Shown here piece after piece: positions 8,148 to 43,278 of a stretch of DNA of 57,327 nt (positions within the stretch are counted from its first letter, which is position 1; the number at the start of each line of letters is the position of its first letter). A program made the translations under genes and the position numbers. The notes beneath the pieces are model-generated. The model worked only from the letters and a program-made list of their open reading frames with translations, was not told the origin of the DNA and did no database searches. This stretch comes from a virus. Location of the stretch: positions 1-57,327 of the IMG/VR virus record IMGVR_UViG_3300002145_000154; one strand, written 5' to 3'.

Positions 8148-9203
8148 TTATCCTTTTCTTGAAGTGGCTGCACAATTGGCACAATAACCTACTGAGTTGC
8201 TCCGATGGATCGGTCTTCCGCACTGAGAACACGCTCTTGAATAGCTTGGCGACACGATCTTCATGCCCGGCTCTTCATCAAGGATTTCAGGTTCCTTCCA
8301 TTCACAGTCCTCAGGATACTCTGCCCATCCACACCCATTTTGTGTCGGCCCAGATGGAGCAATTTTGAGTTCTCCTGCAACAGAGACACAAATATCTACA
8401 GACCCAAAATCTTGGAAGAAGTCTTGGACGATCGGAACGGTGGTGTCTGTCTCTGGTTCCAGTTCTGGAGATTTCGGGTGTTGATAATTGTACTCTTCCA
8501 GGAAGTTTGCAGGATCATAGTGTTCGTCGAATGTTTGTTTGAATCGCTTTGACCAATTGAGAAGTATGGTCGATTCTCCGAACCGATTAACGAACTCTCT
8601 GATACTGACTGGTTCGGAGAACGGACGTTCCCACTCCCCTTTCCAACCATTCGCATCTATGATTTCCAAATCAAACTCTTCACACAATTCTTTCGGAGTG
8701 AATAACCGTCGTTCTCCATCACACCGTAGACAATGCCAATGGTCCGACTTATCCTGACAATCAGGACACTCCACACCAAAGACCCCTGGTTGTTCACTGT
8801 CTTTTGTTTGGACAGCCTCACGTTCTGCTTCTCTGTCTCGGTTCTCTTCCGCTGCTCGTTCATCTGAGTAGAGATTTGGGTATCTCGATTTCAGCTTCTG
8901 AAGATTGCCTGACATACAGTCTTCCAGCGTGATCTCGAGAGCGTTGCAGATTTGAGACAACCTCCAGAGAGCATCACCGACTTCTTCTTTGATGTTGACC
9001 TTGTCCAGTGGCTTACCATACTCAATCCACTTTTTCAAAGCAGCGTTCAGTTCTCCTACTTCATCAGACAGTCCCGTGATCCCGTTATTCAGTTCAATAA
9101 ACAACAACTGATCATTTGGGGACCAACTGTGGAATCTCTCCAACACTGTCTGTTGGTCTGCTTCAGTTTTCATTGCCAGAACTTGGTATTCGTTTGGGGT
9201 CAT
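8148..9203 (-). CDS. MazG-like nucleotide pyrophosphohydrolase fused to zinc-ribbon tail
   Basis: 351 residues. Residues about 40-110 are a MazG-type all-alpha pyrophosphohydrolase (EVGE at 48-51, KEEVGDALWRL 72-82), which hydrolyses (d)NTPs to monophosphates. It is followed by a cysteine cluster (CPDCQDKSDHWHCLRC about 147-162), an acidic middle region and a C-terminal zinc ribbon (CSQCGRP...CANC). The fusion to zinc ribbons is unusual for MazG and may dock it to DNA or replication proteins. ATGA overlap with the upstream gene. Confidence 0.75.
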   Translation of the reverse strand: MTPNEYQVLAMKTEADQQTVLERFHSWSPNDQLLFIELNNGITGLSDEVGELNAALKKWIEYGKPLDKVNIKEEVGDALWRLSQICNALEITLEDCMSGNLQKLKSRYPNLYSDERAAEENRDREAEREAVQTKDSEQPGVFGVECPDCQDKSDHWHCLRCDGERRLFTPKELCEEFDLEIIDANGWKGEWERPFSEPVSIREFVNRFGESTILLNWSKRFKQTFDEHYDPANFLEEYNYQHPKSPELEPETDTTVPIVQDFFQDFGSVDICVSVAGELKIAPSGPTQNGCGWAEYPEDCEWKEPEILDEEPGMKIVSPSYSRACSQCGRPIHRSNSVGYCANCAATSRKG

Positions 9204-11185: not shown

Positions 11186-12322
11186 TCAGTCTTTCTTCAA
11201 GTGGTTTTGTTCCCAGTTGGTCTGTCGTCGTTGCAGCCACTCAATACCTGCTTGTCTCCAATCTGGAGCTTCACATGTAGTGCGTAACAAGTTCAGTGCC
11301 ATCGAGTACTGTCTCCGTTTGTGTAGTTCAAACGCATAACACATTGGAGCAGCTACTCTCTGGAGAAACGGTTCTGACCAATTCCGAGTCCAGTCCTCGT
11401 TCGTGACGAATGCTTGGACCTCTCTATCAAAGACCCCTCTATCACAAACAAAGGGTTGTTGCCAAGGAGCGATTTCGTCATAGTTGGTGTCTGTACAAGC
11501 TTCCAACCACTTTTCAGGATGGAAACCAGAGTTAGTGTCCAGGTACACATGGAGATCAGAAGAGATTTGGTGGTATTGACCAACTTCTATTCCTAGACAA
11601 CACGCGATATACTCCTGTAGGAAACTGAAGTGAACAACGTTGGCTCCGAGCATCCCATAGATCGCGTCATTGGATCGATTGAAGACAGTCATGTCAAGAA
11701 CTTTTGGACTGAGTTGCTCTCCAGGTGTTTTGGTTGGGTGGTAAGGTCCAGCGACTAACCCGTCATCAGGGTCTCTGATCGAAAACACCACAGACAAATT
11801 GCAACAAACATCTTTTGATGTGTCCAGTTGTAACAAGTCGTCTTGAACATTCCACATCTGGAGAACAGCTCTTCGAGAGTTTGGGGTTTCTCGAAGATGT
11901 TCAACGAGAAGACATAGTTGGTCAATCCCATTCAGATCTGAATCCACTCGGTCCTCTACACAGTCATCCACTTGGGCATGTCGCCAACGGTATCCGTAGG
12001 CACCGTTGAGAGTTTCCCAGTCGTCGGAGTAGTTTCCGAACGTAGAAACATATTTCAGCAAAGGCTGAAGATCGTTCCGACCAGCAAGCATCCAGAGTGA
12101 TTCGAACAAATGAAAGAACGGATTGCAGTTACGAACTGAATTGAACAACACACGTTCTCTTGGGTGTGTGTATGTCACAATGACTGGTGTGGAGAACTTT
12201 CTTGTTTTTCCGTTCCTTGTGTTCACCTCAACGATTGTTCCATTGGCTAACAGTTCCGGGTCTCGGAGATCGCTAACCAACTGTTCAAAAGCTGTGTTGA
12301 CATTTCGTGTCGTGTAGTGCAT
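11186..12322 (-). CDS. Thymidylate synthase family enzyme (possible dUMP hydroxymethylase)
   Basis: 378 residues, longer than the usual ~265-residue ThyA. Family marks are visible: paired Arg in NSRRAVLQMWN (148-158), the catalytic Cys position in DVCCN (C173/C174, where ThyA has PPCH), NRSND (215-219), N228 and D256-x-H-x-Y260. ThyA methylates dUMP; phage relatives hydroxymethylate dUMP or dCMP. The usual His after the catalytic Cys is Asn here, so the reaction is uncertain. The base-modification cluster downstream would fit hydroxymethyl-dUMP. GGAG nine bases before ATG; the nucleotidase gene ends just upstream. Confidence 0.75.
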   Translation of the reverse strand: MHYTTRNVNTAFEQLVSDLRDPELLANGTIVEVNTRNGKTRKFSTPVIVTYTHPRERVLFNSVRNCNPFFHLFESLWMLAGRNDLQPLLKYVSTFGNYSDDWETLNGAYGYRWRHAQVDDCVEDRVDSDLNGIDQLCLLVEHLRETPNSRRAVLQMWNVQDDLLQLDTSKDVCCNLSVVFSIRDPDDGLVAGPYHPTKTPGEQLSPKVLDMTVFNRSNDAIYGMLGANVVHFSFLQEYIACCLGIEVGQYHQISSDLHVYLDTNSGFHPEKWLEACTDTNYDEIAPWQQPFVCDRGVFDREVQAFVTNEDWTRNWSEPFLQRVAAPMCYAFELHKRRQYSMALNLLRTTCEAPDWRQAGIEWLQRRQTNWEQNHLKKD

Positions 12323-12323
12323 C

Positions 12324-12887
12324 TCACTCTGCTCCTTGTTTTTCTAGAAGGGTTTCCAACTCAGTGATTAAGTGGGTCATCGGGTCCTGAGATTTCAAGT
12401 GTAGGGAATTCCCACGTGTTGGAAACACGATAGAATGCCCTCCTGCCTCTCGGAACTTTTCTACATTATAGTCTCTGTCGTCGATCAAAACCGAACCAGA
12501 ATGAGCCATCAGGTGTTTGTGTGGTGTCAGAACGAATCGATCGAACTGTTTCCCGAAGAAGTTCTGAAGCCACTTGATTTTGCCCGTCCTGGAATCTATC
12601 TGCCATGACGGAGAAGAAGCGATGTACCATTCTTCTGGAAAAAGCGATTCTACAATATCTACGACTTCATGGGCCCACGGCAAAGGTTCTAGATCAGTCC
12701 AGAACTGTTCACCAGCCTCATTAATCGGTCTCCAGAATTGTCCTGGTGTCAGGCCGAGCGGCGTGTTGATGTCCCAACTCCCCGGAGTACGAACTTTTTC
12801 AAGGTCTTCTACTGAAAAACCGTGAAGAATTAAGGCTCCTTGCGTGAAATCAGTGATTACCTCGTCCATATCCAGGAGAATTCTCAT
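12324..12887 (-). CDS. 5'(3')-deoxyribonucleotidase, HAD superfamily
   Basis: 187 residues. DMDEV (6-10) is HAD motif I (nucleophile D6, acid D8), WYIASSPSW motif II, and LIDDRDYNVEKFREAGG motif III/IV, as in NT5C-type enzymes that dephosphorylate dUMP/dTMP. It sits first in the operon beside the ThyA-family gene, so it probably removes unwanted deoxynucleotide monophosphates. The divergent promoter region lies just upstream. Confidence 0.8.
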   Translation of the reverse strand: MRILLDMDEVITDFTQGALILHGFSVEDLEKVRTPGSWDINTPLGLTPGQFWRPINEAGEQFWTDLEPLPWAHEVVDIVESLFPEEWYIASSPSWQIDSRTGKIKWLQNFFGKQFDRFVLTPHKHLMAHSGSVLIDDRDYNVEKFREAGGHSIVFPTRGNSLHLKSQDPMTHLITELETLLEKQGAE

Positions 12888-12904
12888 GTGTTTTCTCTAC
12901 TTTC

Positions 12905-12975
12905 AAAAATCTTGGAAAATTTTCTAGAATAGTCTACGGGGACTATTTACTTTCTACCGATACAAAGTATATTCC
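12905..12975 (+). promoter_or_regulatory. Promoter with palindromic operator, copy 1
   Basis: An A/T-rich block (GGAAAATTTTCTAG) is followed by AATAGTC (12928-12934) paired with GACTATT (12941-12947). TTTACT (12946-12951) and TATATT (12968-12973), 16 bases apart, are -35/-10-like. It stands between divergent operons. The arrangement recurs at 30270 and 33086. Confidence 0.6.
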
Positions 12976-13024
12976 GCTCACGGCAATGCGGTTCACTGAA
13001 ACTTATCTTTCACGGAGCAAAACA

Positions 13025-13270
13025 ATGAAAGTCACTTTCAACAACAACGAATACGTTCGAAGTCATGCCAAGAAACCCCGAGGAGGAGTCCGAGGCAGTT
13101 GGGCGTTCCAGATCGTCGAGATCAACCAATACCAAGGCGAAGGAGAGATACATTTCAGTCCTTCAATGACCTTGGCCGAAGCAAAGAAGTGGGTGATGAG
13201 TCTTGTCAGGGAGGAAGCAATCCAACTTGTCCCAGCTGCTGATGCTGTTGATGTTGCGATTCTTCCGTAG
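13025..13270 (+). CDS. Hypothetical protein
   Basis: 81 residues. First gene of a plus-strand operon behind the repeated promoter. Leader CACGGAGCAAAACAATG carries the ribosome site; the same leader precedes the next gene. An earlier in-frame ATG at 12986 lacks a site. A strand-rich middle (GSWAFQIVEINQYQGEGEIH) and a helix (LAEAKKWVMSLV) are visible; no known family. Confidence 0.65.
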   Translation: MKVTFNNNEYVRSHAKKPRGGVRGSWAFQIVEINQYQGEGEIHFSPSMTLAEAKKWVMSLVREEAIQLVPAADAVDVAILP

Positions 13271-13335
13271 TCTCTTGGACCTCTTCAAACCCAGGCTGTT
13301 TCTCCTTCTACCCTATCCTTCCACGGAGCAAACCA

Positions 13336-13809
13336 ATGAGAAATGCAAAGACCGACATTGAAACCCTTATCGCTAAGTATAGCCTGACGGAAGTCATCGC
13401 TTGGGAGCGTGTCCGAGAATTGAGTACTTTCGACGACGAGGGATTTCGTGACGAGTTGCGGGGTTCTTGGACAAACGCGAGTCGCGTTTGGGTGGGTGGT
13501 ATTGGAGCAGGACTCAGCGTTGTGATTTGTGAGTTCTCCGGTTCATGGCCATGGTACAACGTAATCGTCTCAGAAGCTGTTCCAGTTAATACAGCCTGGG
13601 TGAAGATTGAAGACCAAAAACGAGAACCGCTTGGCTACGCAATAACGACAGATTGGAACGGCGAGCGAGCCGGCAGCGGTATCCCTAGGATTCCAGAATC
13701 TCTCCGAGGCTTTATGTACCGGGTCACGACGGGTGGCGATCACAAGATTCTTCCCGAAGATGTCATTTCCTACTTGGTTTCCCGGATTCAATCGAACCCA
13801 AACGGGTGA
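13336..13809 (+). CDS. Hypothetical protein
   Basis: 157 residues, preceded by CACGGAGCAAACCAATG, almost the same leader as the gene before. The N-terminus is helical (TDIETLIAKYSLTEVIAWER); the middle is beta-rich (VGGIGAGLSVVICEFSGSWP). No domain recognised. Confidence 0.6.
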   Translation: MRNAKTDIETLIAKYSLTEVIAWERVRELSTFDDEGFRDELRGSWTNASRVWVGGIGAGLSVVICEFSGSWPWYNVIVSEAVPVNTAWVKIEDQKREPLGYAITTDWNGERAGSGIPRIPESLRGFMYRVTTGGDHKILPEDVISYLVSRIQSNPNG

Positions 13810-13904
13810 TTTTGGGTCGAATTGAAAAATTCCTGAGATTTTGTGTCCTACTGACTAGTCCGGTTTTGTTTTCCAACGTACACTCATACAAGGAGGTACC
13901 AATC

Positions 13905-14096
13905 ATGATTCAAGAGACAATCAAGCGAACGTTCGGTGAACTCATGGTCGGGGATATTGTGATCCTTGAAGACAACACTGAGTTCACCATCCTCTCCGTC
14001 CAAACAAACCGAAGCCGTTGTAAGGCGTTCGGACGAGTAGACGGTGTGACCCGTCTAGTTGAATTCGATGGCTTGGTAACATGCGTTGCCGAGTAG
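13905..14096 (+). CDS. Hypothetical small beta-barrel-like protein
   Basis: 63 residues. AAGGAGG lies eight bases before ATG 13905, a near-perfect ribosome site, which rules out the longer in-frame reading from 13806. FGELMVGDIVILEDNTEFTI resembles small KOW/SH3-like folds. Function unknown. Confidence 0.6.
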   Translation: MIQETIKRTFGELMVGDIVILEDNTEFTILSVQTNRSRCKAFGRVDGVTRLVEFDGLVTCVAE

Positions 14097-14140
14097 TTTC
14101 CCGGACCATTTCAGGTCCACAATCCCTTGTGTCAGGAGCA

Positions 14141-14596
14141 ATGATGACAACGACGACGACAAAGAAGGCGACGACAAAGAAGGCACCCGTCAAGAAAACC
14201 GCAACAAAGGAAGCTACCCCGACTGCAGCTAAGAAGGAAGTTGCCCCGACTGCAGCTAAGAAGGAAGCAACAAAGAAAGTTCCTGCAAAGGAGCCCAACA
14301 CTCCCCGTAAAGAGAGAGAAGTGGCTGACCAGACAGCTAAAGAAATTCGCTGGACGCAAAAGAAGATTGATCTTTTCGCGGCATTCAAGGCTGCTGGTGC
14401 TGTGTCGGAAGCTACTGCCAAACGAATCGAAGAAATCGCTGAGGCAGGCGGTCTGGCTGTTGCAGCTGCTCGCCATCAAGTCAATCCCAAATTCGATTTG
14501 ACTGTCCAGGAATACATCGGTTCTGCTGTGATCGAGGGAGCACGAGCAACCTGTTACTTCTTGACCAAAAAGGGACAGAGCAAAAAGTTCGACTGA
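14141..14596 (+). CDS. Histone-like Lys/Ala-rich DNA-binding protein
   Basis: 151 residues. Residues 1-50 are made of KKAT, KKAP and TAAKKE repeats like histone H1 or AlgP-type tails. The rest (about 65-150) is a compact helical domain (RWTQKKIDLFAAFKAAGAVS) ending in basic residues. A DNA-coating or nucleoid role is likely. ATGATG sits just after AGGAG (first ATG 2 bases, second 5 bases away). It is the last gene before a strong terminator. Confidence 0.65.
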   Translation: MMTTTTTKKATTKKAPVKKTATKEATPTAAKKEVAPTAAKKEATKKVPAKEPNTPRKEREVADQTAKEIRWTQKKIDLFAAFKAAGAVSEATAKRIEEIAEAGGLAVAAARHQVNPKFDLTVQEYIGSAVIEGARATCYFLTKKGQSKKFD

Positions 14597-14623
14597 GCCT
14601 CCTGCTCTGTCCAGAGAAAGTAG

Positions 14624-14657
14624 AACTCGTGGCTCGAAACCGGGTCACGAGTTTTTT
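14624..14657 (+). terminator. Rho-independent terminator
   Basis: AACTCGTG (14624-14631) pairs with CACGAGTT (14646-14653), followed by six T. It ends the plus-strand operon 13025-14596. On the minus strand a run of A precedes the stem, so it may work for the converging operon only weakly. Confidence 0.85.
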
Positions 14658-14662
14658 CGTTC

Positions 14663-15034
14663 CTACTTTTCTACGAGCTCGTGGCAAAGAAGGACCACAG
14701 TCACCCAAGGAGCCAGACGGTTGATTTCTGTGGCCTGAACCGGGTCGTCTTCGAAGTGAAGTAGAACCTTGATATCCTCCTCATTTTTCAAACGACTGAA
14801 CACAGTCCCCTTGTGTTGCCCCGAAGTTACACGGCTCCGTCCATTGAACGGTAATGGGTTCAGGTAGAGACGTTCTGGAGAGATGCCTCGACTTCTCAGC
14901 ATATCTTCCGTTTCTTCTCGTTGCTCAAACGACCGCCCCGAAACGATTATGTCGTCCGGTCCAGGGTAGATCCCCTTGTGTCGGGGTCCCATCCATATCA
15001 CTCCGTCGATGTCGTAGGAGTTGACGTAAATCAT
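14663..15034 (-). CDS. HAD-like phosphatase
   Basis: 123 residues. YDIDGV (7-12) is HAD motif I with D8 and D10; IIVSGRSFEQREET provides the Ser/Thr motif II; FEDDPVQATEI matches the acidic motif IV. This short form resembles the phosphatase half of phage polynucleotide kinases and related nucleotide phosphatases. There is no kinase half. It is preceded by a 239-bp leader with a duplicated element. Confidence 0.65.
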   Translation of the reverse strand: MIYVNSYDIDGVIWMGPRHKGIYPGPDDIIVSGRSFEQREETEDMLRSRGISPERLYLNPLPFNGRSRVTSGQHKGTVFSRLKNEEDIKVLLHFEDDPVQATEINRLAPWVTVVLLCHELVEK

Positions 15035-15053
15035 CAGATTCTCCGAATGGTTT

Positions 15054-15167
15054 GATGTAAGGACCTGGGTGATCCCAAACGGAACGCTATGCCTGGACTT
15101 AACCCTTATGCCCGCCCGCAGGTAAAACCTCCGTGACGGTCCTTGTAGGGTCCTCAGGTTTGAGTAC
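15054..15167 (-). repeat. Intergenic repeated element, copy 1
   Basis: 114 bp, tandem with 15183-15296 (period 129). Shared blocks on the minus strand: CTGAGGACC, AGGACCG, ACGGAG, TTTT, AGCGTTCC, GGATCACC and CCTTACATC. The middle differs, so the parts conserved are probably structural or protein-binding. Gap 15035-15273 contains nothing else I can identify. Confidence 0.6.
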
Positions 15168-15182
15168 AGAAACCCCCCAAGG

Positions 15183-15296
15183 GATGTAAGGAGCCAGGTG
15201 ATCCTGTAAGGAACGCTGTCATCAGGCCGTAAGTTACTCCCTAACCTACGTACAAAACTCCGTAGCGGTCCTCTCAGGTCCTCAGATTGTGAGTCC
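15183..15296 (-). repeat. Intergenic repeated element, copy 2
   Basis: Second copy of the 114-bp element. It overlaps the last 23 bases of the inositol-phosphate synthase gene, so the C-terminal THNLRT of that protein is encoded by repeat sequence. A related sequence lies at 53083-53210. Confidence 0.6.
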
Positions 15297-16437
15297 GTAA
15301 TGAGTCAGTCAGTTCTCGATTCGCTAGAGCCTGACACTCCTTGTAGGCATCTTGAATCATCATCTGCTGGGGAGGTGATTTCTGAGTTGCTGCTGAAGGA
15401 CCTCTGAGAGCACCTACGAGCCCCAACTCCTTCGCGACCTGTAAGTACCTGATCGCATCAATAACAACGCCTGCAGAGTTTGGTGAGTCCTGTACGGAAA
15501 GTTTCGCATCGAACTCGACTTTGGCCCCGCCGAACCCAGTTGCCTCGATACGGAAATGGGCGATTTTGTTGTCACCGAGGTGTGGGATATAGCAGGACGG
15601 TCCCGCATGAATCCCGTCTTCCGGGACCGGAATCCCTCGAATATCATTCTGACTTCGAATCACGTTTTCTTTTGAGATTTTCTTCGAAGAAAGACGTGTC
15701 TGATCGACCATATTAAGAAAGTCAGTGTTTCCTCCGTAATTGGTTTGACAATGGAACTGAACGTGCATGCCTCGGTTGAAGAAAAGTTCTTGTAAAGCCT
15801 GAGACATAACAGAAGCACCGAGTTGAGACCGCATATCATCCCCGATTGCAGGGATGCCGGCTGCTCTAATACGATCTTCCCACACTGGATCAGAAGCAAT
15901 AAACACTGGAATACAATTCACGAACGGAACCCCAGCAATAAGACAACCAGAGATATAGAACTCAGTTGCCTCCTGAGAACCCACAGGAAGATAGTTGAGC
16001 ACAACATCAACCTCATAATCTATGAGGTCGTTAATAAACTTGCTGGAAGACAATTCAGGTCTATTTGAAACCCGAACACTCTGATGAGCTGGGTAGCTTG
16101 CCATGTGAGGAGCCACTCCATCAAGGACTTGCCCCATCTTGACTGGACAAGTACCATCAATCACAAAATTCAAAACATCATCTTCTCTGTAGTCCTGGAA
16201 GAAGCTCTTTGCACAATTCGGTTGTTGGTATATCGCGTCGGCCAAATGTCTCCCAACTTTCCTATCGTCTACATCATAAGCTAGCACAAACTCCAGGTCT
16301 TCTGCTTTGTACCCTCCAATTTCAACAAAACTCAGTCCGTCAGTGCTTTCATTTTCAGTGTAGAGGCCCACTCCTTCTATCAAGGATTTGGCACAGTTAC
16401 CTACCCCAACAACGCAGACACGGATTTTCTTTGACAT
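15274..16437 (-). CDS. ino1: Myo-inositol-1-phosphate synthase
   Basis: 387 residues, normal length for the bacterial/archaeal form. VVGVGNCAKSL (9-19) is the NAD-binding loop; GDDMRSQLGA (199-208) matches the family hallmark GDD-x-K-S; NYGGNTDF, and SPNSAGVVIDAIRY near the C-terminus are also typical. The enzyme converts glucose-6-phosphate to inositol-3-phosphate using bound NAD. It is rare in phage. It overlaps the ATG of the glycosyltransferase-like gene upstream by 37 bases, linking it to the proposed DNA-modification cluster. K-to-R in the GDD motif is conservative. Confidence 0.9.
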   Translation of the reverse strand: MSKKIRVCVVGVGNCAKSLIEGVGLYTENESTDGLSFVEIGGYKAEDLEFVLAYDVDDRKVGRHLADAIYQQPNCAKSFFQDYREDDVLNFVIDGTCPVKMGQVLDGVAPHMASYPAHQSVRVSNRPELSSSKFINDLIDYEVDVVLNYLPVGSQEATEFYISGCLIAGVPFVNCIPVFIASDPVWEDRIRAAGIPAIGDDMRSQLGASVMSQALQELFFNRGMHVQFHCQTNYGGNTDFLNMVDQTRLSSKKISKENVIRSQNDIRGIPVPEDGIHAGPSCYIPHLGDNKIAHFRIEATGFGGAKVEFDAKLSVQDSPNSAGVVIDAIRYLQVAKELGLVGALRGPSAATQKSPPQQMMIQDAYKECQALANRELTDSLRTHNLRT

Positions 16438-17282
16438 TCTGCAACCTCCTTCAAGAATCCAGGGGAACTCGTTGTGGTCTTCAGCTTTGTGCTGAAGCGG
16501 CGATTAAAGACTGGCTTTGAGGTCACCTCAAACACAGTACCAGTCTTCTGAGTGTATTGTATACGATCTGTCTGTCTCGAAAGTCTAGGATACTCTTTCT
16601 GGAGTAGATCATAGAACTCTCTCTGTTCCGTAGCCCGATCAAACGACTGAAGACCTCCAGGGAGGGTAGACAGATCAGCTGCCCAACAATACTTCCCGAT
16701 CCGTAAGGTCACGAGTTCTTCCAGTAACAGGTGGGCTGAAGCTACAAATTCTTCATGGTATCCTCTTGTTACTTCTGGAACAAACCAGGACTCTGTACGT
16801 ACGATGTAAGTCGTTTCGAACATTTTATTCACATGAGTCACATCTCTCCAATCTGAATGGAAATACTTGGAGGGGAAACTCAGACCTCCCAGACTGAGTC
16901 CAGCCTCTTCTGTCACAGAGGAAAGGTCTGAAAGAAGTGTGAGACAATCGTCTAACATCTTTCCCTGATCAGACTTGGATGAAACCCGGGAATGATCATA
17001 CCAGTGATGAATGTCGTCGTCCATTTTCCAAACAAACTCAACACCTGAGGACTGGCAATGTTTCTTCATTGCTGACAGAGCATGACCAAGTCCCTGATCG
17101 TTGTGTTTGAGCACTACTAACCGACCCTCTTCCACTCCTGCTTCAAGGTACGAACCAACGTCTTGTGGTTCAACAAACACAGACCAATCCACGTTGGTAT
17201 GTTGTAGTATTTTCGCAGTTTTTTTGATGAAAATTTCTGCCCTTGCTTTAGAAGGAACACAAATTTTGACTAGGCTATTCAT
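16401..17282 (-). CDS. GT-A fold glycosyltransferase
   Basis: 293 residues. A beta-strand start (LVKICVPSKARAE), FVEPQD, QGLGHALSAMK and WKMDDDIHHW (86-94, metal-binding DDD) are GT-A features. The layout resembles TET/J-associated glycosyltransferases that act on hydroxymethyl pyrimidines in DNA, though I cannot exclude a general GT2 enzyme. Start set at ATG 17282 (GGAG five bases upstream, overlapping the previous stop), not 17330. It overlaps the inositol synthase gene, so its donor could involve inositol (inference). Confidence 0.65.
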   Translation of the reverse strand: MNSLVKICVPSKARAEIFIKKTAKILQHTNVDWSVFVEPQDVGSYLEAGVEEGRLVVLKHNDQGLGHALSAMKKHCQSSGVEFVWKMDDDIHHWYDHSRVSSKSDQGKMLDDCLTLLSDLSSVTEEAGLSLGGLSFPSKYFHSDWRDVTHVNKMFETTYIVRTESWFVPEVTRGYHEEFVASAHLLLEELVTLRIGKYCWAADLSTLPGGLQSFDRATEQREFYDLLQKEYPRLSRQTDRIQYTQKTGTVFEVTSKPVFNRRFSTKLKTTTSSPGFLKEVAECQRKSVSALLG

Positions 17283-17958
17283 TGAGGCTCCAACCATAGA
17301 TTCTTGTGTGAAGGTCTTGAAGTTCTTCATCGTTCAAGATGTAATCAGGTAATTCTACGTCTTCATATCTCCTATTAAAGTCCTCGGCTCTATTAACGGC
17401 TTCTGGGAAAGAGGAACCTGACGAAGTCTTCACAGAATCCTCATCCCCTGCCAATTTGAAACTTCTCAGAGCCGATTGAGGGATCCCGGTAACTATTCTG
17501 TCAGACGAGCATAATTGGGTGATAGAAACACCAAACTCCTGAAGAGGAGCGTAGACTACCGAGTTGTCTTCTAGCCACTCTTCGTAGATGATGGAAGTTT
17601 TTCGGTTGTTGATCACTATAGTAGCTCTATCCTTCCATCTTCTAACAAACTTTTCATCTGTGGGAAGGATACCATACCATTTCTTCGCCTTATCATGTCT
17701 TTCAATCATCTTAACTCTAGATGAGTAGACGTTATAGATACTCCGTATGATCTCTAGACCAAGAGAAGCGTTCTTTTCTTCGAACAGTAATAGATTCAAC
17801 CTGTTCGTCTCTGTTCCCCTGAATATTTGAGGTTCAGGTATCTTTAGATTCAAATCATTAAACAGATAACAGTCCCCGGGATATGACCTGGCTATCTGCT
17901 CACAGATCACATGTGCTCCACTCCTTCTAAGGAAAGACAGGGGAATAGTTTTCACCAT
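17275..17958 (-). CDS. Sulfotransferase-like P-loop protein (tentative)
   Basis: 227 residues. FLRRSGAHVI near the N-terminus resembles the phosphate-binding loop of sulfotransferase-like enzymes (R-S-G-x-H), and RSIYNVYSSRVKM resembles their second, 3'-phosphate site (R-D-x-Y-N-x-x-S-R). The C-terminus is acidic and helical. The match is by pattern only. It could also be an unrelated kinase. ATG at 17958 is preceded by AGG; a GTG three codons upstream is possible. Placed between the glycosyltransferase and the transferase-like gene. Confidence 0.4.
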   Translation of the reverse strand: MVKTIPLSFLRRSGAHVICEQIARSYPGDCYLFNDLNLKIPEPQIFRGTETNRLNLLLFEEKNASLGLEIIRSIYNVYSSRVKMIERHDKAKKWYGILPTDEKFVRRWKDRATIVINNRKTSIIYEEWLEDNSVVYAPLQEFGVSITQLCSSDRIVTGIPQSALRSFKLAGDEDSVKTSSGSSFPEAVNRAEDFNRRYEDVELPDYILNDEELQDLHTRIYGWSLNE

Positions 17959-17970
17959 TTGACACACCTT

Positions 17971-19080
17971 TCATAGATGAGGTATAGATATCCCTTCGTC
18001 TTGGAATAGTTCCTTGACCAGTAATTCGTTCGGGTCAATTCCTAACTGAAGATATGGATTTGGCATATCGTCCTGGAACAGTTCACCCATATGGAACAAC
18101 AACCCAGTTTCACCAAAGACTTTGTTGTGCTGATTTACGTACGTGAGTCCCTTCACAACACTTTCTTGAGTAAGCAGGGCTCTCCTGAACAGGGACCAGT
18201 CTACCTCAGGCCAATGTTCTCGAAAGTAAAGATAACGACTGGTTGCATCACCGCTTGAATGTCCTGGGTATTCTTTCGAATCGTTTGGATTGAACAATCG
18301 TTTGAATTGACACCACACAGACTCCCATTTAAAGACGTCCACTGAGATCCCTGAGTACTCTTCGGCTTTACGCCGATACCTCATGATATCATGTCTCACG
18401 AACTCTAAATCTTCTGGTGTGACCTGGTATCCAGAACCAGTAGCATATTGTTTCCCGAGAAGCTTGTCGTAGTGTCCTTTCAACATACAGTACCCATTCC
18501 AAATCGATTTCATGCTTCCGTCAGAGTTTGGGTTTCTTACAAGAACATTCGGGAAATCGATCTTCAAACCAAGAACATCGTACAGACATTGACAGGCAAT
18601 CCAACTCGTCATCCGACCAAACTTGAAGATTTCACAGACTGAATTGAACAGACTCTCAAAGTTTGTGTGGGGATCTTTGAAGGAAGTGAGTGCTTCAACT
18701 TTCTCTAGGAGAGAAGAATATCCATCGACCCACTTGATCAGAGAACACGTCTGAGCAGCAAAATGACCCTTGTTGTATCGTGCGTCTGTGCCGTACGAAG
18801 TGCGTTTCCAATTCTCAGTGTTCCATCTCTCAACGTCTTGTTCTGTGATCTCTTCGAAGTCTTGAAAGTGCCACCAATAAGCATATGCTTGAGGTGTTCG
18901 GTAGGTCATTCCGAACAAGAATCCAAACCAACATTTTTGTTCTCTGGTCATCTCACTGGTGAGCACACGACAATAGTGAGAATGATCCAAATCGTCAACT
19001 GTCATCCTCCATGTGTAGTATCGTAGGAACAATTCTTCTCTGTTCTTCAGAGACCGCCAATCACGAACTGGTTTGGGCAT
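17971..19080 (-). CDS. Amino-acid:DNA-transferase-like protein of thymine hypermodification
   Basis: 369 residues, all-alpha. FKFGRMTSWIACQCLYDVLG (about 152-171) and a tryptophan-rich first part (AYWWHFQDFEEIT) resemble the alpha-glutamyl/putrescinyl-thymine pyrophosphorylase-type (ADDT) family, which displaces pyrophosphate from 5-hydroxymethyl-dU in DNA and attaches an amine. Direct proof is missing; the neighbouring kinase pair supports it. Starts MPKPV (TTG-ATG), like two other proteins here, and overlaps the kinase gene by 20 bases. Confidence 0.55.
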   Translation of the reverse strand: MPKPVRDWRSLKNREELFLRYYTWRMTVDDLDHSHYCRVLTSEMTREQKCWFGFLFGMTYRTPQAYAYWWHFQDFEEITEQDVERWNTENWKRTSYGTDARYNKGHFAAQTCSLIKWVDGYSSLLEKVEALTSFKDPHTNFESLFNSVCEIFKFGRMTSWIACQCLYDVLGLKIDFPNVLVRNPNSDGSMKSIWNGYCMLKGHYDKLLGKQYATGSGYQVTPEDLEFVRHDIMRYRRKAEEYSGISVDVFKWESVWCQFKRLFNPNDSKEYPGHSSGDATSRYLYFREHWPEVDWSLFRRALLTQESVVKGLTYVNQHNKVFGETGLLFHMGELFQDDMPNPYLQLGIDPNELLVKELFQDEGISIPHL

Positions 19081-19621
19081 CAAATAGTCCTAGAATTTGG
19101 GCAACTGCTTTCCTATGATCGATGATGACCACTCTCCGGCCGATCTCAGTGATTACCCTGATACTTCTCTCCACATTTTTGAATTTAACGATCACATTTT
19201 TGGGGTCGAGTGGTTTGGTGTTTCCTCTAGCCAATCGACGACTCTCAACTCGCTTAATACACTTTTCCAAAGGAGTGTCCAAGAATGCGAACACCATTTC
19301 GTCCCCAAAGACTTCACTTGCTCTGCCAATGGTACCATAGGAAGAACTGACGAGAGCTCCCTCGAATAACACATGACCTTCCTGAGCATATGCAGCGATC
19401 CGAGGCCAAATCAGGGCATAAGGCTGAATACTGTCACACCCTCCGCATTTGGTCTTGTAGGCTCCTACAATGAAGAGAGGCTTGTCCAACCAAGGAACAC
19501 TTAACTTGTATCCATCAGGCTTCTTTTCTCCAGAAATTTCTTCTTTAGGATATCGTTCCAAGATCGTAGAAACGATCGTAGATTTTCCGCTTCCGTTAGT
19601 TCCTCTAAGAGAAATCAACAT
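19061..19621 (-). CDS. P-loop kinase, probable 5-hmdU DNA kinase catalytic part
   Basis: 186 residues. RGTNGSGKST (6-15) is Walker A; GHVLFEGALVSSSYG (82-96) holds the acidic strand, and FAFLDTPLEKCIKRV the lid-side strand. Standalone domains of this kind phosphorylate 5-hydroxymethyl-dU in phage DNA. AGGAG lies six bases upstream of ATG. The gene directly upstream encodes the helical partner usually found in the same polypeptide, so the kinase seems split. It could otherwise be a dNMP-kinase-type enzyme. Confidence 0.65.
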   Translation of the reverse strand: MLISLRGTNGSGKSTIVSTILERYPKEEISGEKKPDGYKLSVPWLDKPLFIVGAYKTKCGGCDSIQPYALIWPRIAAYAQEGHVLFEGALVSSSYGTIGRASEVFGDEMVFAFLDTPLEKCIKRVESRRLARGNTKPLDPKNVIVKFKNVERSIRVITEIGRRVVIIDHRKAVAQILGLFDAQTSS

Positions 19622-19622
19622 T

Positions 19623-20465
19623 TCAAACTCCTGCGAATCGTTGTTTCGGCCGACCTTCTCCGTTCAATGTCCGGAGGTACTTATCTGTTTCACAAAGACA
19701 ATTCTGAACATCGATAGCTTCTGGGAGTTGGAGCCAATTCCTTGAAGATCGAACTCGATCAATCAGCTTCGCAAGTTCCTTCTGAAATTCTCCCTTAGAT
19801 ATGGGAGCCCCTAATTTTCTCCCAAGAATTCTGTTCATGCCTCTCTTGGACCCTGGTCCCATCGGAGCCCATTCATCCTTGTCTGGCCACTCGACATCTA
19901 CTGTCCATCTGAGATCAGCAACGACTTGTCCTGCGATGAACGAACTGAATCCCGCATAGGGTAACAGATTCTCCCAAGTGGTTTTCATCGAAGAGCGATC
20001 GATGAGTTTGCTTCGATCAGCATGGATCGGTGTGACAACTTTGTGGACCACTTGTTCGATCTTAGTTCCTCCAAGAGTTCCAGTGATCATGTAAGCAGCT
20101 GCGAAGTTTTTCAATCCATTGACTACTCTCTTGTCCAGGATTTTCTGGACAGCTGCTGGACTCCACTTCTTTGGGAACCCAACGTCAGCAAGAGACTCTG
20201 TGTTGTTCAGTTGTCTCGCCAGTGTTACTGCTGTTGGCATGTTTGCATGGTCGAAGTTTGGCTGGTACCAGTTCTCTAACAACCATTGACTGACCCGATC
20301 ATTTATCCTCAGAACGTTACAGAACTTGAACTTCATAAGGATTTCGTCGTCTGTCCAGGGTTTCGAAACAGCATTCAGTCTCTTCAAATAGATCTCTTGA
20401 CGTTCTGAAACCCAATAGTCGAAAATTTCCAATGGGGTCAGTTTCTTGACTTCGGCGATCTTCAT
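19623..20465 (-). CDS. 5-hmdU DNA kinase helical-domain protein
   Basis: 280 residues, alpha-helical. PWTDDEILMKFKFCNVLRIN (36-55) followed by DRVSQWL matches the characteristic start of the helical domain linked to 5-hydroxymethyl-dU kinases; basic residues and RPKQRF close the C-terminus. This domain is thought to place the kinase on DNA. ATGA overlap with the polymerase stop. The kinase gene follows immediately. Recognition is from memory of the family pattern. Confidence 0.65.
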   Translation of the reverse strand: MKIAEVKKLTPLEIFDYWVSERQEIYLKRLNAVSKPWTDDEILMKFKFCNVLRINDRVSQWLLENWYQPNFDHANMPTAVTLARQLNNTESLADVGFPKKWSPAAVQKILDKRVVNGLKNFAAAYMITGTLGGTKIEQVVHKVVTPIHADRSKLIDRSSMKTTWENLLPYAGFSSFIAGQVVADLRWTVDVEWPDKDEWAPMGPGSKRGMNRILGRKLGAPISKGEFQKELAKLIDRVRSSRNWLQLPEAIDVQNCLCETDKYLRTLNGEGRPKQRFAGV

Positions 20466-22648
20466 ACAGCACCTGTTGTTGTGAGGTATTTCAACTCTTT
20501 CATACTGATGCTGGTTCCCCAGTTATCAGGATGAATATCGATCCCGACTCTCAGAGGAATTCCAACATTTTGGCCCATGTCTTGCATGATCCGTTGTACC
20601 TCCAGAAGAACAGGTTCATAGTCACAGTCCAGTGGGAAATCAATAACAACTTCGTCGTGGACTTGCATGATCAGTTTCCAGTCATCTTCTAATGTCTCAA
20701 AGTATTCAGAGACCTTGACCATGGCTCTCCAGATAATCCACATGGCCGTTGACTGAATATGGTAGTTCAATGGGATTGTCGGCGAAATCGTGCCATATGG
20801 AGTCCTTGAACAGGCAACTGGATAGCCTTTCTCAGGGTCTACTTCCTTGTCTGGAATTGTCTCTACGATTCCATACGTGTTCGCCATTCTGATGTAGTGA
20901 TCGTTTAAGGCAGCGATTTTGGGCATCTTCTTCTTGAGCTCATTATAGGCTCCCGGAACCCGAAAGGTCGTGTCTGCTTTAGCTTCTTGGCAACCATACT
21001 GGATAGCGAAGCCACCGTTCTTGACCCATTGATAGTAGGTTGCTTTGTACTTGTCCTTGAAAGCTCCCTTAGTTTCGCTGAGAGGCCAGAACTTTTCGGG
21101 ATAGACGATACTAGCGTTGAGAAGGTGGTAAGAACCAAAGTAAGGAGCTTCGTCTGGTTTTTCAAACAGCTCAATCATCACTTGTTCTTGTGATTCGTAA
21201 GCTGGAATCCTGAGCTCCACGTTTTCATAATCCATAGAAGCCCAACAACGACCAGGAGTTGGGCCGAAAGCGTATCTCAGATTGAAGCCATCTTGTTTAG
21301 AGATATTTTGCTCGTTCGGGTTAGAAGAGCTTCCTCTGAGCGTGTTCGTACCAGTAGGATTCAAGGAAGGATGTAATCTGAAGAACTGTTCATGCTCTGT
21401 TGGAACCCAGAACTTTTGATAAGAGTCCATGTAGGAACAAGCAGTGTCTCTTTTTCTCTTATCCTTCAGTGCTCTAACGAAGAGAAGCTCTTTGCTCTTA
21501 GGAGGTAAGACCTCTTCATAGGCTGACATCGCTTCTTTGTCTAATGAGGGGTTTCCTGATTTGGTACGACTGACAATTGGAAGTGGAAGGACTGCTTTAG
21601 TCTTTTCTGAATCAAACAGGAAGTGGAGCAAAGAGTTGTTATTCCCAGATTTCGGGAGGACCAGATCGTAGTTCATCCTCTTGGCTATGCGAACACACCG
21701 ATCTCCTGATTTAACAGATTCCTCCTCGTACTGAGCAGTCAGTTCTGACAGATTAGATTGGTTGACAGTGACGCCCCACTCTTCCATCTGTGGAATCACT
21801 GGTAAGAGTCTGAGACGTTCGTTGTAGATGTCCCAGAGTTGTCTCTCTTCGATCTTTTCAGCAAGGTACCTCCACAACATTACTGTGGCAATAGAATCTG
21901 AATTGGCATAGTCGGAGCAGATCGTCTGATATGGATGTCTTGTTGGCAATCTCTCTGTTCGAGCTACTACTCTCGGAAGCCACATGTCCAGCTTCCAGAC
22001 TTTGGATTTGGCCGAAGGCATACATTCTAGATCAGATTTTGCGAGCACCCAATCCTTAAACAGATATTCCTCTTCATCTTCGATTGTTTTGGTACATCGT
22101 CGTCGAAGCTCCAAAACTACGTCTCGAATTTTGTCTTCGTAGGGTTGTAAGTTGGTTCCAAGATACCGGAGAACCATGCTTGTCAGATCATGCGGTTGAA
22201 CTGAATTAAGCATGTGATCAGCAAACAATGTGTCTACAGTTTTCAACCAATCCCATTCTAGTTCCATTCCATTATCTTGGAAAATGGCTTTCAACATAGA
22301 ATAGTCGAACTTCGTATTCTGTAGTACACAAAGTTCTGCCTGATTAATCTCTTCTTGGATCTCACAGAGGTCCGCTGGGTCAACGATTACACGGCGAGTT
22401 TTCGGATCAACGTCCCATTCCCACCAAGACACTGCACCATCTTGATCAGCAACAGTGACGAGGAACGGTCTAGCTCCGTGATGTAGGTCTACCCCAGTTG
22501 TTTCAGTGTCAATCGAGATCCATCTCTTCGCCGATAGACACAGGTTTCGGAGAACCTTTCCTGATCGGTGATTTGGCTTTGAGGGCAGCTTTCTTCTTGG
22601 AGAATGTTTTCTTTGTAGGACTTGGGTTCGGTGTTTTGGCTTCGGCAT
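20462..22648 (-). CDS. Family A DNA polymerase with 3'-5' exonuclease
   Basis: 728 residues. Exonuclease motif I SIDTETTG (45-52), LQNTKFDYSMLK (motif II) and NSDSIATVMLW (motif III) precede the polymerase: GTNTLRGSSSNPNEQN, motif A MDYENVELRI, motif B YYQWVKNGGFAIQYG, motif C MQVHDEVVID. It lacks the 5' nuclease, as usual for T7-like phage enzymes. The ATG at 22648 lies 140 bases inside the upstream zinc-finger gene; the first 40 basic residues are therefore encoded in an overlap. It starts MPKPK. Replicates the phage genome. Confidence 0.95.
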   Translation of the reverse strand: MPKPKHRTQVLQRKHSPRRKLPSKPNHRSGKVLRNLCLSAKRWISIDTETTGVDLHHGARPFLVTVADQDGAVSWWEWDVDPKTRRVIVDPADLCEIQEEINQAELCVLQNTKFDYSMLKAIFQDNGMELEWDWLKTVDTLFADHMLNSVQPHDLTSMVLRYLGTNLQPYEDKIRDVVLELRRRCTKTIEDEEEYLFKDWVLAKSDLECMPSAKSKVWKLDMWLPRVVARTERLPTRHPYQTICSDYANSDSIATVMLWRYLAEKIEERQLWDIYNERLRLLPVIPQMEEWGVTVNQSNLSELTAQYEEESVKSGDRCVRIAKRMNYDLVLPKSGNNNSLLHFLFDSEKTKAVLPLPIVSRTKSGNPSLDKEAMSAYEEVLPPKSKELLFVRALKDKRKRDTACSYMDSYQKFWVPTEHEQFFRLHPSLNPTGTNTLRGSSSNPNEQNISKQDGFNLRYAFGPTPGRCWASMDYENVELRIPAYESQEQVMIELFEKPDEAPYFGSYHLLNASIVYPEKFWPLSETKGAFKDKYKATYYQWVKNGGFAIQYGCQEAKADTTFRVPGAYNELKKKMPKIAALNDHYIRMANTYGIVETIPDKEVDPEKGYPVACSRTPYGTISPTIPLNYHIQSTAMWIIWRAMVKVSEYFETLEDDWKLIMQVHDEVVIDFPLDCDYEPVLLEVQRIMQDMGQNVGIPLRVGIDIHPDNWGTSISMKELKYLTTTGAV

Positions 22649-37982: not shown

Positions 37983-38726
37983 TCAGTTCAACTTTTCATG
38001 TTGGAATTTGGTAGACACTTCTCTAGTCCTTCTCCGATTTCGAAAGTAACTCTGTAGACGTTGCTGGCGTTCTTTGGCTTCGTCCGGAACAGAACCATCC
38101 GTCAGAGCAGAGCTTCGTCCACACCAGTTCACACCGGCTGGTCCGAGGTGTAGTACCTCAAACGGTGGCCTGATTTTTCGCTCGGCCGGCCAGAGAGCCT
38201 GGAAGAAAGAATCAGCTCCTCCTGCGTGTCGCCAGTTAATATCGTGCCACGGTGGTGGGGGAAGTATTTCGTCGCTTCCGTGGAGGAGCTGGGAGTACCC
38301 TGCAAACTCTGTTTCGTTTCGATGTAAGGGATACTCCGCCCAGTGGCCCTCGGACGGTATAGGATCACTCAGGTCCTCCAGCATTCTCCGTCTGGGAGTA
38401 TAAATGTTTCCCTTCTGAGGTTGGAACCCATCGAGAGATTTCGGCCAGAGTACGTCCGCGTCCATAAGACAGAGCCAACCATCTCTTCCTATATGGTCTA
38501 GACATGCTTCCAGGGCACGCCACTTGTTGAAATCAGCACCGTTTTCGTAGAAGAGATCAGTCTGCCAGACTTCCGCCCCATGTGCGACAGCCACTCCCGG
38601 AGTTCGGTTATCAGCGAAAGAGGTGATAACATGAACTTCCGAGAAGTGATGGCGGTTGTAGGGAAGTGTGATTGCTAGAAGGTCTGCATAGTCAACGCAC
38701 ACTAGCACGGCTCGTACTTGTTCCAT
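37983..38726 (-). CDS. GT-A glycosyltransferase
   Basis: 247 residues. LCLMDADVLWP (about 89-99) is a D-x-D metal motif; ALEACLDHIG before it and WRHAGGADSFFQALW later suit a GT2-like sugar transferase. TGATG overlap with the methyltransferase. First listed and last transcribed gene of the minus-strand glycan island. Confidence 0.7.
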   Translation of the reverse strand: MEQVRAVLVCVDYADLLAITLPYNRHHFSEVHVITSFADNRTPGVAVAHGAEVWQTDLFYENGADFNKWRALEACLDHIGRDGWLCLMDADVLWPKSLDGFQPQKGNIYTPRRRMLEDLSDPIPSEGHWAEYPLHRNETEFAGYSQLLHGSDEILPPPPWHDINWRHAGGADSFFQALWPAERKIRPPFEVLHLGPAGVNWCGRSSALTDGSVPDEAKERQQRLQSYFRNRRRTREVSTKFQHEKLN

Positions 38727-39307
38727 CAATTGTCCTTTCGCATATAGTAGGACCAGGGAGCTCCATCAATTTCAGTCACCAAGTAGACGTAGGGAATACC
38801 AAGAGACTCCGCAACAGTTGTTACCGCTGGTTGGACAGTACGTCCCCAGCCTCCCTGTTTCTCTCCAAGACACACGATATCGTGTCCAGCCAGTATTCCT
38901 CCGGCACGTAATTTTGGCCACCAAGCTCGGAGGTCTTGTGCTGTAGCTTCTTCTTGGTGACAGGCGTCAACATAAACAAAGTCGACAGTCCCATCGGAGA
39001 ATCGATCGGCAGCAGCAACACTGTCTTTTCGGTAGATTTCTGTTCGTGATCTGAAAGGATGGAGGATTTGCTGAGCTGCTTTGTAGTCAGCCGTCCGATC
39101 ACTGTGAGACGTTGGATCAGCCACGTCATATCCTGAAGCCCACGTATCCACACAAACCAACTTTTCACCCTTCCAGTTGGCTATCAGGTTGGCAGCAAAG
39201 ACCCCTCGATGAGTACCCAACTCCACGGCAGTTCCTAAGAGTCCCAGAGAATTCAAGAAGCCTGCAAACTGGTTTCGTCCTGCGAAAGGAGCAGCTTGAT
39301 AGATCAC
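38726..39307 (-). CDS. Class I SAM methyltransferase
   Basis: 193 residues. VELGTHRGVFAANLI is the SAM-binding strand/loop; DTWASGYD and DFVYVDACHQEEATAQDL are the later Rossmann strands, and GGILAGHDIV a motif of sugar-type methyltransferases (Methyltransf_24). It is a paralogue of the gene at 43275. Probably methylates a glycan or nucleotide sugar. Confidence 0.75.
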   Translation of the reverse strand: MIYQAAPFAGRNQFAGFLNSLGLLGTAVELGTHRGVFAANLIANWKGEKLVCVDTWASGYDVADPTSHSDRTADYKAAQQILHPFRSRTEIYRKDSVAAADRFSDGTVDFVYVDACHQEEATAQDLRAWWPKLRAGGILAGHDIVCLGEKQGGWGRTVQPAVTTVAESLGIPYVYLVTEIDGAPWSYYMRKDN

Positions 39308-40248
39308 TTTTTGGCTCCTTGCAGGTATTCCGTGAACTTGAGATTTCGTGAGTCGAGCTGGTTGATGTCGGTCACTAACTCTACCAGCCGTTCTCTTGAT
39401 TTTGGATGGTAAATGTTCGCGTGAGTCTCACTGACTTGCTCAGGTCCAGTCCCTTGTTGAGCCAGTTGACCGTACCCACGGAGAGGCACACCACAATTCA
39501 AACAATGCTGGTCTACCTGGTTTTCGAAAGCATCCATTCCGAGTTTCCACCACTCCAGATTTTCCGCAACCGGGATCCCAGTGATCGGCCAGTCTGGATC
39601 GTCCTGATGGAGAATCGCTTGGGCACCTGCGACTTCACAGAAGTACCCATAGAGAGTTCCTCGGATTTCACACATCATCGCAGACCAGTACTTGTTGATA
39701 TCACAGTTGGCTATCAGGTTCCAACACTCACCCTCATCAACAATATCCTTCATTGCTACATGTGTTGGACTATGCCGAGAGTCGTCTTCAGATTTCAGAC
39801 CAAACGGTCGCGACTCTGGCCAATCCCTTTTGAACTCATCGAAAGCTTCTTGTTTGAGATGAACATTCAGGTTGGAATATCCTGGATCAAACGTAGAACG
39901 CATCTCTCGACCATGCCCTCTGGGATGATTACACCAGATACCAGCCCGACGTCGAGGAACATGAATCCGAACCAGGTTACAAAGAGTTGGAAACTCTGGA
40001 TGAAGAGCAGGATTGCCACCGAATACTCCAACAATGCCAAAGTAGCTTCTCAGAGACATCAGTGCGAGTTCAAAGTTTTCTACACTGATGAATGAACGAA
40101 GACCACGAAGATTGCTTCCCTGAGTACAGTGATAACAAGCCAGATCGCAGGTCCGTGTCACATGGATTTGTAATACACCTCCTCTTGGCTTGCCTGTCCG
40201 ACGCTGGCTAGGGAGTATCATCTGTGATAATGCTTGCTGTCTGTCCAT
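39304..40248 (-). CDS. Radical SAM enzyme
   Basis: 314 residues. HVTRTCDLACYHCTQGS contains C-x3-C-x2-C for the [4Fe-4S] cluster; GVFGGNPALHPEF is the GGE-like SAM strand; HCLNCGVPLRGYG near the C-terminus offers extra cysteines as in SPASM-type domains. Substrate unknown; the glycan island suggests a sugar, peptide or nucleotide. ATGA overlap with the methyltransferase. Confidence 0.8.
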   Translation of the reverse strand: MDRQQALSQMILPSQRRTGKPRGGVLQIHVTRTCDLACYHCTQGSNLRGLRSFISVENFELALMSLRSYFGIVGVFGGNPALHPEFPTLCNLVRIHVPRRRAGIWCNHPRGHGREMRSTFDPGYSNLNVHLKQEAFDEFKRDWPESRPFGLKSEDDSRHSPTHVAMKDIVDEGECWNLIANCDINKYWSAMMCEIRGTLYGYFCEVAGAQAILHQDDPDWPITGIPVAENLEWWKLGMDAFENQVDQHCLNCGVPLRGYGQLAQQGTGPEQVSETHANIYHPKSRERLVELVTDINQLDSRNLKFTEYLQGAKK

Positions 40249-42694: not shown

Positions 42695-43278
42695 GAGAGG
42701 ACCTCAATTTGAACACCGTAAACTCTCTGAAGAACTGGAATGATGGTTTCGTTGGCTCGCTTGAATTCGTTAAGCAGGTCATCGTGAGTGTTCATAGCTC
42801 CTATCATTCCTGGAGCGTAATTAGATCTTCCTCCGCCATCCATTCCCAGTACATAGAGCGTTTTCAGACAGCGATACTTACACAACCAGTGGATTGCTCC
42901 TGATGTTGTGTGGTGATGAACTATTCCTCCTGAAAGGATTCTGTGGTGAATGTTTTCAAGCACATAGGAACAAGCATGGTCCTCGTAAGTGAGCCATTTG
43001 TACTGTCCGTCTAGCAACCATCTATTGTCCGGGTGCTGTTTTGCAAACTCAGGACTCACGAACGTGTCGATCTTTACCGCCAACGATTCAGGGATTCTGG
43101 ATTCGCTCGGGATTCCTACACGAGTCAGATGTGTGAAGAAACAGTAATCTATTCGAGGAGTTTTCTTCAACAGAAGACTAGAATCGTTCACGGTCGCAAT
43201 GATTTCTGGTCTCAATTTTTCACAGACCTCGTCAGCTCTTGCCGCTGATGGTCCTTTAAGAATCAAGATCGCTTTCAT
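42691..43278 (-). CDS. DUF115/sialyltransferase-like protein
   Basis: 195 residues. A Rossmann-like start (ILILKGPSAARADEVCEKL, then ATVNDSS) with SGAIHWLCKYRC and LYVLGMDGGGR resembles DUF115 and CMP-sialyltransferase-like proteins, which would use the product of the neighbouring cytidylyltransferase. The match is partial; another nucleotide-sugar enzyme is possible. Confidence 0.5.
   Translation of the reverse strand: MKAILILKGPSAARADEVCEKLRPEIIATVNDSSLLLKKTPRIDYCFFTHLTRVGIPSESRIPESLAVKIDTFVSPEFAKQHPDNRWLLDGQYKWLTYEDHACSYVLENIHHRILSGGIVHHHTTSGAIHWLCKYRCLKTLYVLGMDGGGRSNYAPGMIGAMNTHDDLLNEFKRANETIIPVLQRVYGVQIEVLS

Follow-up and report, generated by a model that had tools for sequence, protein, structure and literature searches.

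Linkage of myo-inositol synthesis to DNA base hypermodification genes in a phage genome and its relatives

Why would a phage keep a myo-inositol-3-phosphate synthase (MIPS, Ino1) among genes that act on the bases of its DNA? This question is raised by IMG/VR virus record IMGVR_UViG_3300002145_000154, of which all 57,327 bases were analysed (hereafter the window). It encodes a 1168-aa tape measure protein and thus probably stems from a long-tailed phage. An earlier note on this DNA had described a candidate base hypermodification pathway at positions 11186-20465, in which inositol synthesis was included in passing. The genes it named are present where it had placed them, and, apart from a supposed sulfotransferase, their families were confirmed by Pfam and PHROG profiles (Table 1). 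The Pfam matches of the cluster proteins, including the MazG-type protein, all lie above the curated cut-offs, among them those to the ADDT, HMUDK_hel and TAGT families, for which the note had proposed profile searches. MIPS itself was confirmed, and its place is more than that of a side remark: together with a small HAD hydrolase (14663-15034) that the note had not mentioned, it is the most constant partner of DNA transferases of the ADDT type found in the cluster. The cluster probably serves thymine hypermodification in which inositol is placed by the ADDT on phosphorylated 5-hydroxymethyldeoxyuridine (5-hmdU) and then glycosylated by a GT-A glycosyltransferase (GT).

Inositol genes beside DNA modification genes

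A scan of IMG/VR with a MIPS profile returned at least 327 relatives, the best 80 of which were taken as loci (given L numbers), and their genomic settings were defined by neighbour clustering and family searches. Among the best 80 listed, 33 MIPS loci were distinct at a 90% identity level of MIPS and had 2.5 kb of sequence on each flank. An ADDT or an HMUDK_hel-type protein is encoded in 31 of these, the remaining two harbour QueC, and the small HAD is present in 28 of the 33. A separate ADDT scan was queried with an alignment, the window protein alone as query having given nothing; among its 54 loci, MIPS occurs in all 39 with a window-like ADDT and in none of the 15 of Ackermannvirus type, which are also without the HAD. 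Furthermore, MIPS was found in 78 of 80 loci of a HAD scan, one exception ending at a contig end, and among the 50,697 phage records of INPHARED the HAD is present in exactly the 18 records with full-length MIPS, which fall into two lineages. The locus sets overlap, the same contig having been fetched twice for L003/L125, L014/L096 and, for Caulobacter phage Cr30, L001/L095. As a control we used 100 random IMG/VR stretches (0.79 Mb) picked by a random 14-mer, PhoH being unsuitable as its scan gave Cr30 alone. None of the 100 harboured MIPS, HAD, ADDT, HMUDK, HMUDK_hel, TET or the two proteins of setting C described below; a weak ThyA match was seen in two.

Four settings were distinguished. 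Setting A combines a ThyA-family enzyme, the 5-hmdU DNA kinase HMUDK, its helical partner HMUDK_hel and ADDT (window, L003 and L090). In setting B, a TET/JBP dioxygenase and a P-loop kinase accompany ADDT (Cr30, L014, L017, L025, L026 and L040, as well as L023, in which no kinase was detected). Setting C, found in most other MIPS loci including T4-like ones, has a protein of ~355 aa with an HMUDK_hel homologue, often together with an FkbM methyltransferase and an NMAD1-type or DUF6378 protein. Setting D consists of MIPS and HAD with QueC (Menderavirus Moby, L048 and L088). The linkage gains weight because MIPS stays while the hydroxymethyl source (ThyA or TET/JBP), the kinase (HMUDK or another P-loop kinase) and the tailoring enzyme (GT-A, GT4 or FkbM methyltransferase) are exchanged. 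The nearest relatives of the window cluster are L003, in which an FkbM methyltransferase takes the place of the GT and of the protein at 17275-17967, and L090, whose GT is 47% identical to that of the window.

Phage MIPS has been grouped with antibiotic synthesis in a marine virome survey (PMC5705922) and was called bacteria-like in a Menderavirus paper (PMC9025141), and it could be an auxiliary metabolic gene that serves the host (solute, lipid or small molecules) and lies near modification genes by accident. The linkage already disfavours this explanation, which we consider very improbable given the neighbours of the 33 distinct loci, the empty random stretches and the retention of MIPS through the exchange of neighbouring enzymes.

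A large second family of loci (L004:8464-16209, L006, L007, L029-L089) carries NMAD1/DUF6378, the ~355-aa protein, MIPS, HAD and the HMUDK_hel homologue, often with FkbM. The ~355-aa protein has GDSH...GNID (SGNH-like) motifs, occurs together with the HMUDK_hel homologue in 21 of 21 clusters and is apparently fused to it in phrog_17781; PDB sequence searches with profiles of these two proteins gave nothing credible. In the QueC loci, MIPS and HAD stand directly before QueC (L002:11201-16615 in Moby, L048:10004-12319, L088:9998-13060), and inositol may be linked there to 7-deazaguanine DNA modification. Moby also encodes TGT, QueE and GTP cyclohydrolase, and its whole genome is without HMUDK_hel or ADDT.

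A profile of the phage MIPS matches Ino1 of M. tuberculosis (1gr0) over its full length (5e-107), with the lysine motifs kept. The window MIPS also matches the mycothiol-type model TIGR03450 (4.7e-88), but its 295.8 bits are under the equivalog cut-off of 638 bits, and phage MIPS partners DNA modification genes, not mycothiol genes. For the small HAD there was no Pfam match and PHROG gave a weak phrog_415 alone; HAD motifs I-IV (DIDGV, GRS, K75 and EDDP) are invariant in five homologues. It is present in 56 of 63 loci, there always within 1.5 kb 3′ of MIPS, and stands beside MIPS also where ADDT and kinase were not seen (L002, L048, L088). In L014, in which the small HAD was not seen, an NT5C-type HAD abuts MIPS; NT5C, the nucleotidase that the earlier note had recognised in the window, is also present in L017 and in L090, where the small HAD was not found. 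The constant position of the HAD 3′ of MIPS and the NT5C abutting MIPS in L014 suggest that the small HAD, or NT5C, dephosphorylates inositol phosphate. A role of the HAD as a polynucleotide 3′-phosphatase, hinted at by phrog_415, is disfavoured because the HAD also follows MIPS in loci in which a neighbouring DNA kinase was not seen.

The HAD downstream of MIPS, with its predicted substrate, and the GT that several loci have between the ADDT and MIPS genes would also suit a different order of events, in which inositol is attached as a phosphate ester or as glycosyl-inositol made beforehand, with the HAD working later than the transfer or in recycling. This is improbable in our view: the HAD accompanies MIPS even in the three loci in which ADDT and kinase were not seen, fitting free inositol phosphate, and two neutral residues of the ADDT, N104 and Q165, suit a neutral acceptor.

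Two further observations concern these genes. Between MIPS and the HAD (window 15050-15300), two similar units of ~30 bases (ctgaggacc...ggaccg...acggag) were spotted by eye. A gene at 43834-45267 encodes a phosphoribosyltransferase domain followed by a C-terminal stretch that is distantly similar to the small HAD (28% over 92 residues).

Hydroxymethylation and phosphorylation genes

The ThyA-family enzyme does carry the altered CCN motif noted before. Canonical thymidylate synthases have PCH at the same place and M6 gp58 and Pam3 have PCN, so the change is one of His to Asn with the catalytic Cys kept. It is common to the M6 type, and the Asn of the deoxyuridine monophosphate (dUMP) site is retained as well. 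The nearest named phages for this protein are Pam3 (38%) and M6 and its relatives (35%), and among PDB entries it is matched best by CMP 5-hydroxymethylase, with every thymidylate synthase ranking lower. The kinase, which is 66% identical to that of L003, and its helical partner were also predicted correctly; they are encoded by separate genes, likewise in M6, Pam3 and Sonora, and HMUDK_hel relatives are present in 131 phage records, including M6-type phages. Owing to the M6-type likeness of ThyA and the separate kinase and helical genes, a front half of the pathway like that of M6 is well supported by homology.

M6 DNA carries 5-(2-aminoethyl)deoxyuridine (5-NedU), and ViI DNA carries 5-(2-aminoethoxy)methyldeoxyuridine (5-NeOmdU) and 5-hmdU (PMC6449724). 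By analogy with M6/ViI-type phages, the ThyA-type enzyme would make 5-hmdUMP, which would be incorporated into DNA, and HMUDK with HMUDK_hel would phosphorylate the hydroxymethyl group in DNA to 5-phosphomethyldeoxyuridine (5-PmdU). The phage very probably replaces part of its thymine by the hydroxymethyl form. Of the likeness to the ViI and M6 sets that had been claimed, that to M6 stands for the front end, where the window shares with M6 and Pam3 the PCN/CCN type of ThyA, a P-loop kinase with helical protein, PolA and a similar genome size. It does not extend to the amino-acid tailoring genes of M6 (aGPT-Pplase2, pyridoxal-phosphate (PLP) and radical-SAM proteins), in place of which the window has ADDT, MIPS, HAD and GT.

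A corresponding region, so far unrecognised, is present in Cr30 around gp121-gp123, with ADDT (46%), a TAGT-like GT, MIPS (48%) and HAD (43%) arranged as in the window. In contrast to the window, Cr30 has a TET/JBP dioxygenase relative (L023 cluster, PF12851) and another P-loop kinase, without neighbouring ThyA, HMUDK or HMUDK_hel; the last was not found anywhere in the Cr30 genome. We considered cytosine as the modified base in the TET-type records, taking a C5-cytosine methylase as its sign, and found none above cut-off in the seven records with TET, ADDT and MIPS, the complete Cr30 among them; thymine is therefore favoured as the oxidised base there. In T4-like loci of setting C, the ThyA protein has CTN and an Asp next to the position of the dUMP-site Asn, residues with which cytosine may be the substrate.

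Some annotations of these proteins differ from our assignments. P-loop kinases bear the name 'terminase small subunit', as in Cr30 gp114 and M6 gp054 (L001:15057-15602; L009:6701-7264), and phrog_800, so labelled, matches the window HMUDK (1.7e-21); this is probably a propagated misannotation. The cluster of the TET/JBP dioxygenases takes in Cr30 gp129 (L001:6709-8037), which bears the annotation 'putative SNF2 DNA repair protein'.

The transferase and the proposed inositol step

The ADDT-like transferase and the GT-A enzyme of the earlier note were borne out by PF18724 (89.4 bits, cut-off 26.2) and the TAGT family PF20691 (35.1 bits, cut-off 27.5). An AlphaFold2 (AF2) model of the ADDT from 30 sequences (pLDDT 91.5, pTM 0.90) found as its best solved matches the 5-PmdU glycinyltransferase PUGT (8z2m, 8z2n), followed by a DNA-bound 8-oxoguanine glycosylase. 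E254 and C258 are invariant in all aligned ADDTs and align with the ET..C of M6 gp51, a likely member of the PUGT family, with which the E..C motif is shared. The acceptor of PUGT is glycine, whereas inositol is proposed as that of the window ADDT. With the Ackermannviridae such as Salmonella phage ViI, the window has PF18724 in common at 20-25% identity, but their ADDTs form a separate branch. At two positions, the MIPS-linked ADDTs carry Asn (97%, N104) and Gln (100%, Q165) in place of an Arg and a Glu that are invariant in those of Ackermannvirus type. If this Arg/Glu pair binds an amino acid by its carboxylate and amino group, the swap fits the exchange of a zwitterion for a neutral polyol. 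The GT carries a DDD motif, a TAGT-like gene lies between ADDT and MIPS in Cr30, and enzyme types that commonly modify sugar-like hydroxyls adjoin MIPS.

Inositol as the added group and the later part of the pathway are inferred from the linkage of the genes, the fold match and the swapped residues. MIPS would convert glucose-6-phosphate to inositol-3-phosphate, from which the small HAD (or NT5C) would strip the phosphate. The ADDT would flip out the base, and a hydroxyl of inositol would displace the phosphate to give 5-(inosityloxymethyl)dU, to which the TAGT enzyme would add a sugar. The protein at 17275-17967 may tailor the product further. It had been called sulfotransferase-like, which was not supported: searches of Pfam, PHROG, NCBIfam, PDB and phage databases gave no credible match, the protein has no relative in the compared loci and a single-sequence AF2 model was uninformative (pLDDT 36).

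Alternatively, as in ViI and M6, the group that the ADDT adds to 5-PmdU might be an amino acid, with the GT acting there or directly on 5-hmdU and MIPS being a passenger. The family is named after amino-acid transfer, and the model folds like a glycinyltransferase. In 2022, Lee et al. reportedly traced 5-NeOmdU to serine. The Ackermannvirus relatives carry 5-NeOmdU (PMC11721090). We nevertheless regard amino-acid transfer in the window as unlikely, since MIPS accompanies every one of the 39 ADDTs of its branch, the Arg/Glu pair has become Asn/Gln, and neither the MIPS loci nor the ADDT loci yielded a homologue of M6 gp51-53 (aGPT-Pplase2, PLP and radical-SAM); the radical-SAM protein of the window (39304-40248) is far off, in another cluster.

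Several points weigh against transfer of inositol by the ADDT. Inositol on this DNA is predicted from the genes; it could instead be joined to the base via a phosphate, or the true substrate of the HAD could be another compound. The match of ADDT to PUGT is structural (E ~0.01, probability 1.00), and an HMM sequence search of PDB chains with ADDT gave no PUGT match. In a tree of 41 ADDTs, one branch (SH-aLRT 100) splits the MIPS-linked from the unlinked set, so that their contrast is one change on the tree. Finally, L002 and L048 have MIPS and HAD with QueC, without ADDT or HMUDK_hel; the module is therefore not tied to this chemistry alone.

Other genes of the window and significance

The cluster is part of a minus-strand block that runs from a primase (7238) to a Dda-like helicase (23927) and is interrupted by small plus-strand open reading frames at 12986-14596. 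Its genes mostly abut or overlap. PolA also stands beside the cluster in L003, and M6 and Pam3 have one nearby. The MazG-type protein that had been counted to the pathway was confirmed by profile, but its gene lies outside the region then described; its position is conserved in L003, L028 and L090, and it probably serves nucleotide-pool control. A second, sugar-type cluster at window 37983-43841 encodes GT-like proteins, two Methyltransf_24 proteins, a radical-SAM, a GT-B-like protein and a cytidylyltransferase, and perhaps makes a surface glycan or a further DNA decoration.

Table 1. Features of the modification cluster and adjoining genes in the window, with the profile matches or other evidence for each.
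Feature	Position	Strand	Evidence
MazG-type nucleotide pyrophosphohydrolase (N-terminal domain)	8148..9203	-	PF03819 6.2e-9; phrog_229 6.2e-30
ThyA-family enzyme, probable dUMP hydroxymethylase (to 5-hmdUMP)	11186..12322	-	PF00303 2e-22
NT5C-type HAD phosphatase, 5′-deoxynucleotidase or second inositol-phosphate phosphatase	12324..12887	-	PF06941 1.8e-11
Small HAD hydrolase, 123 aa, candidate inositol-phosphate phosphatase	14663..15034	-	HAD-like motifs, MIPS linkage
Myo-inositol-3-phosphate synthase (MIPS, Ino1)	15274..16437	-	PF01658 (Inos-1-P_synth) 6.8e-25; 1gr0; TIGR03450
GT-A glycosyltransferase, TAGT family, candidate for glycosylating the attached group	16401..17330	-	PF20691 1.7e-8
230-aa protein between GT and ADDT, without credible match	17275..17967	-	
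ADDT-family DNA transferase, proposed inositol:5-phosphomethyl-dU transferase	17971..19083	-	PF18724 3.9e-25
5-hmdU DNA kinase (HMUDK), P-loop GTNGSGKST	19061..19621	-	PF18748 (HMUDK_HMUD1) 9.9e-10
HMUDK_hel, helical partner of 5-hmdU DNA kinase, aGPT-Pplase1 type	19623..20465	-	PF18723 2.4e-41
Family A DNA polymerase (PolA), replication module adjoining the cluster	20462..22648	-	PF00476 4.4e-32; synteny

Groups known to be added to phage DNA include sugars, amino acids and compounds such as putrescine, according to a 2025 review (PMC12707154). In the literature we found no earlier report joining inositol with phage DNA modification, a search whose scope did not take in Iyer 2013, Lee 2018, Lee 2022 and the phage-TET paper and which leaves priority unsettled. 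By computed formula, inosityl-hmdU and hexosyl-hmdU are isomers; mass alone could therefore mislead, and inosityl bases could have been taken for glucosylated ones. The [M+H]+ values computed are 259.0925 for hmdU, 421.1453 for inosityl-hmdU and 583.1981 for hexosyl-inosityl-hmdU. The cultured phage Cr30 is a testable target.

If true, inositol would add a new class to the groups carried by DNA, a branch of the 'amino acid:DNA transferases' would be reassigned, and the retention of an inositol synthase by phages, earlier read as metabolic or acquired, would be explained. The gene neighbourhoods suggest that inositol decoration is widespread in phages. On balance, and with less confidence than for the window itself, we lean towards MIPS and HAD being a portable cyclitol module, with which many unrelated phages put inositol on hydroxymethyl pyrimidines via ADDT- or HMUDK_hel-type transferases and then add sugars or methyl groups, while in some (Menderavirus, L048, L088) it may be joined to 7-deazaguanine bases. 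Cyclitols would then join sugars, amino acids and polyamines as a further class of groups attached to DNA.

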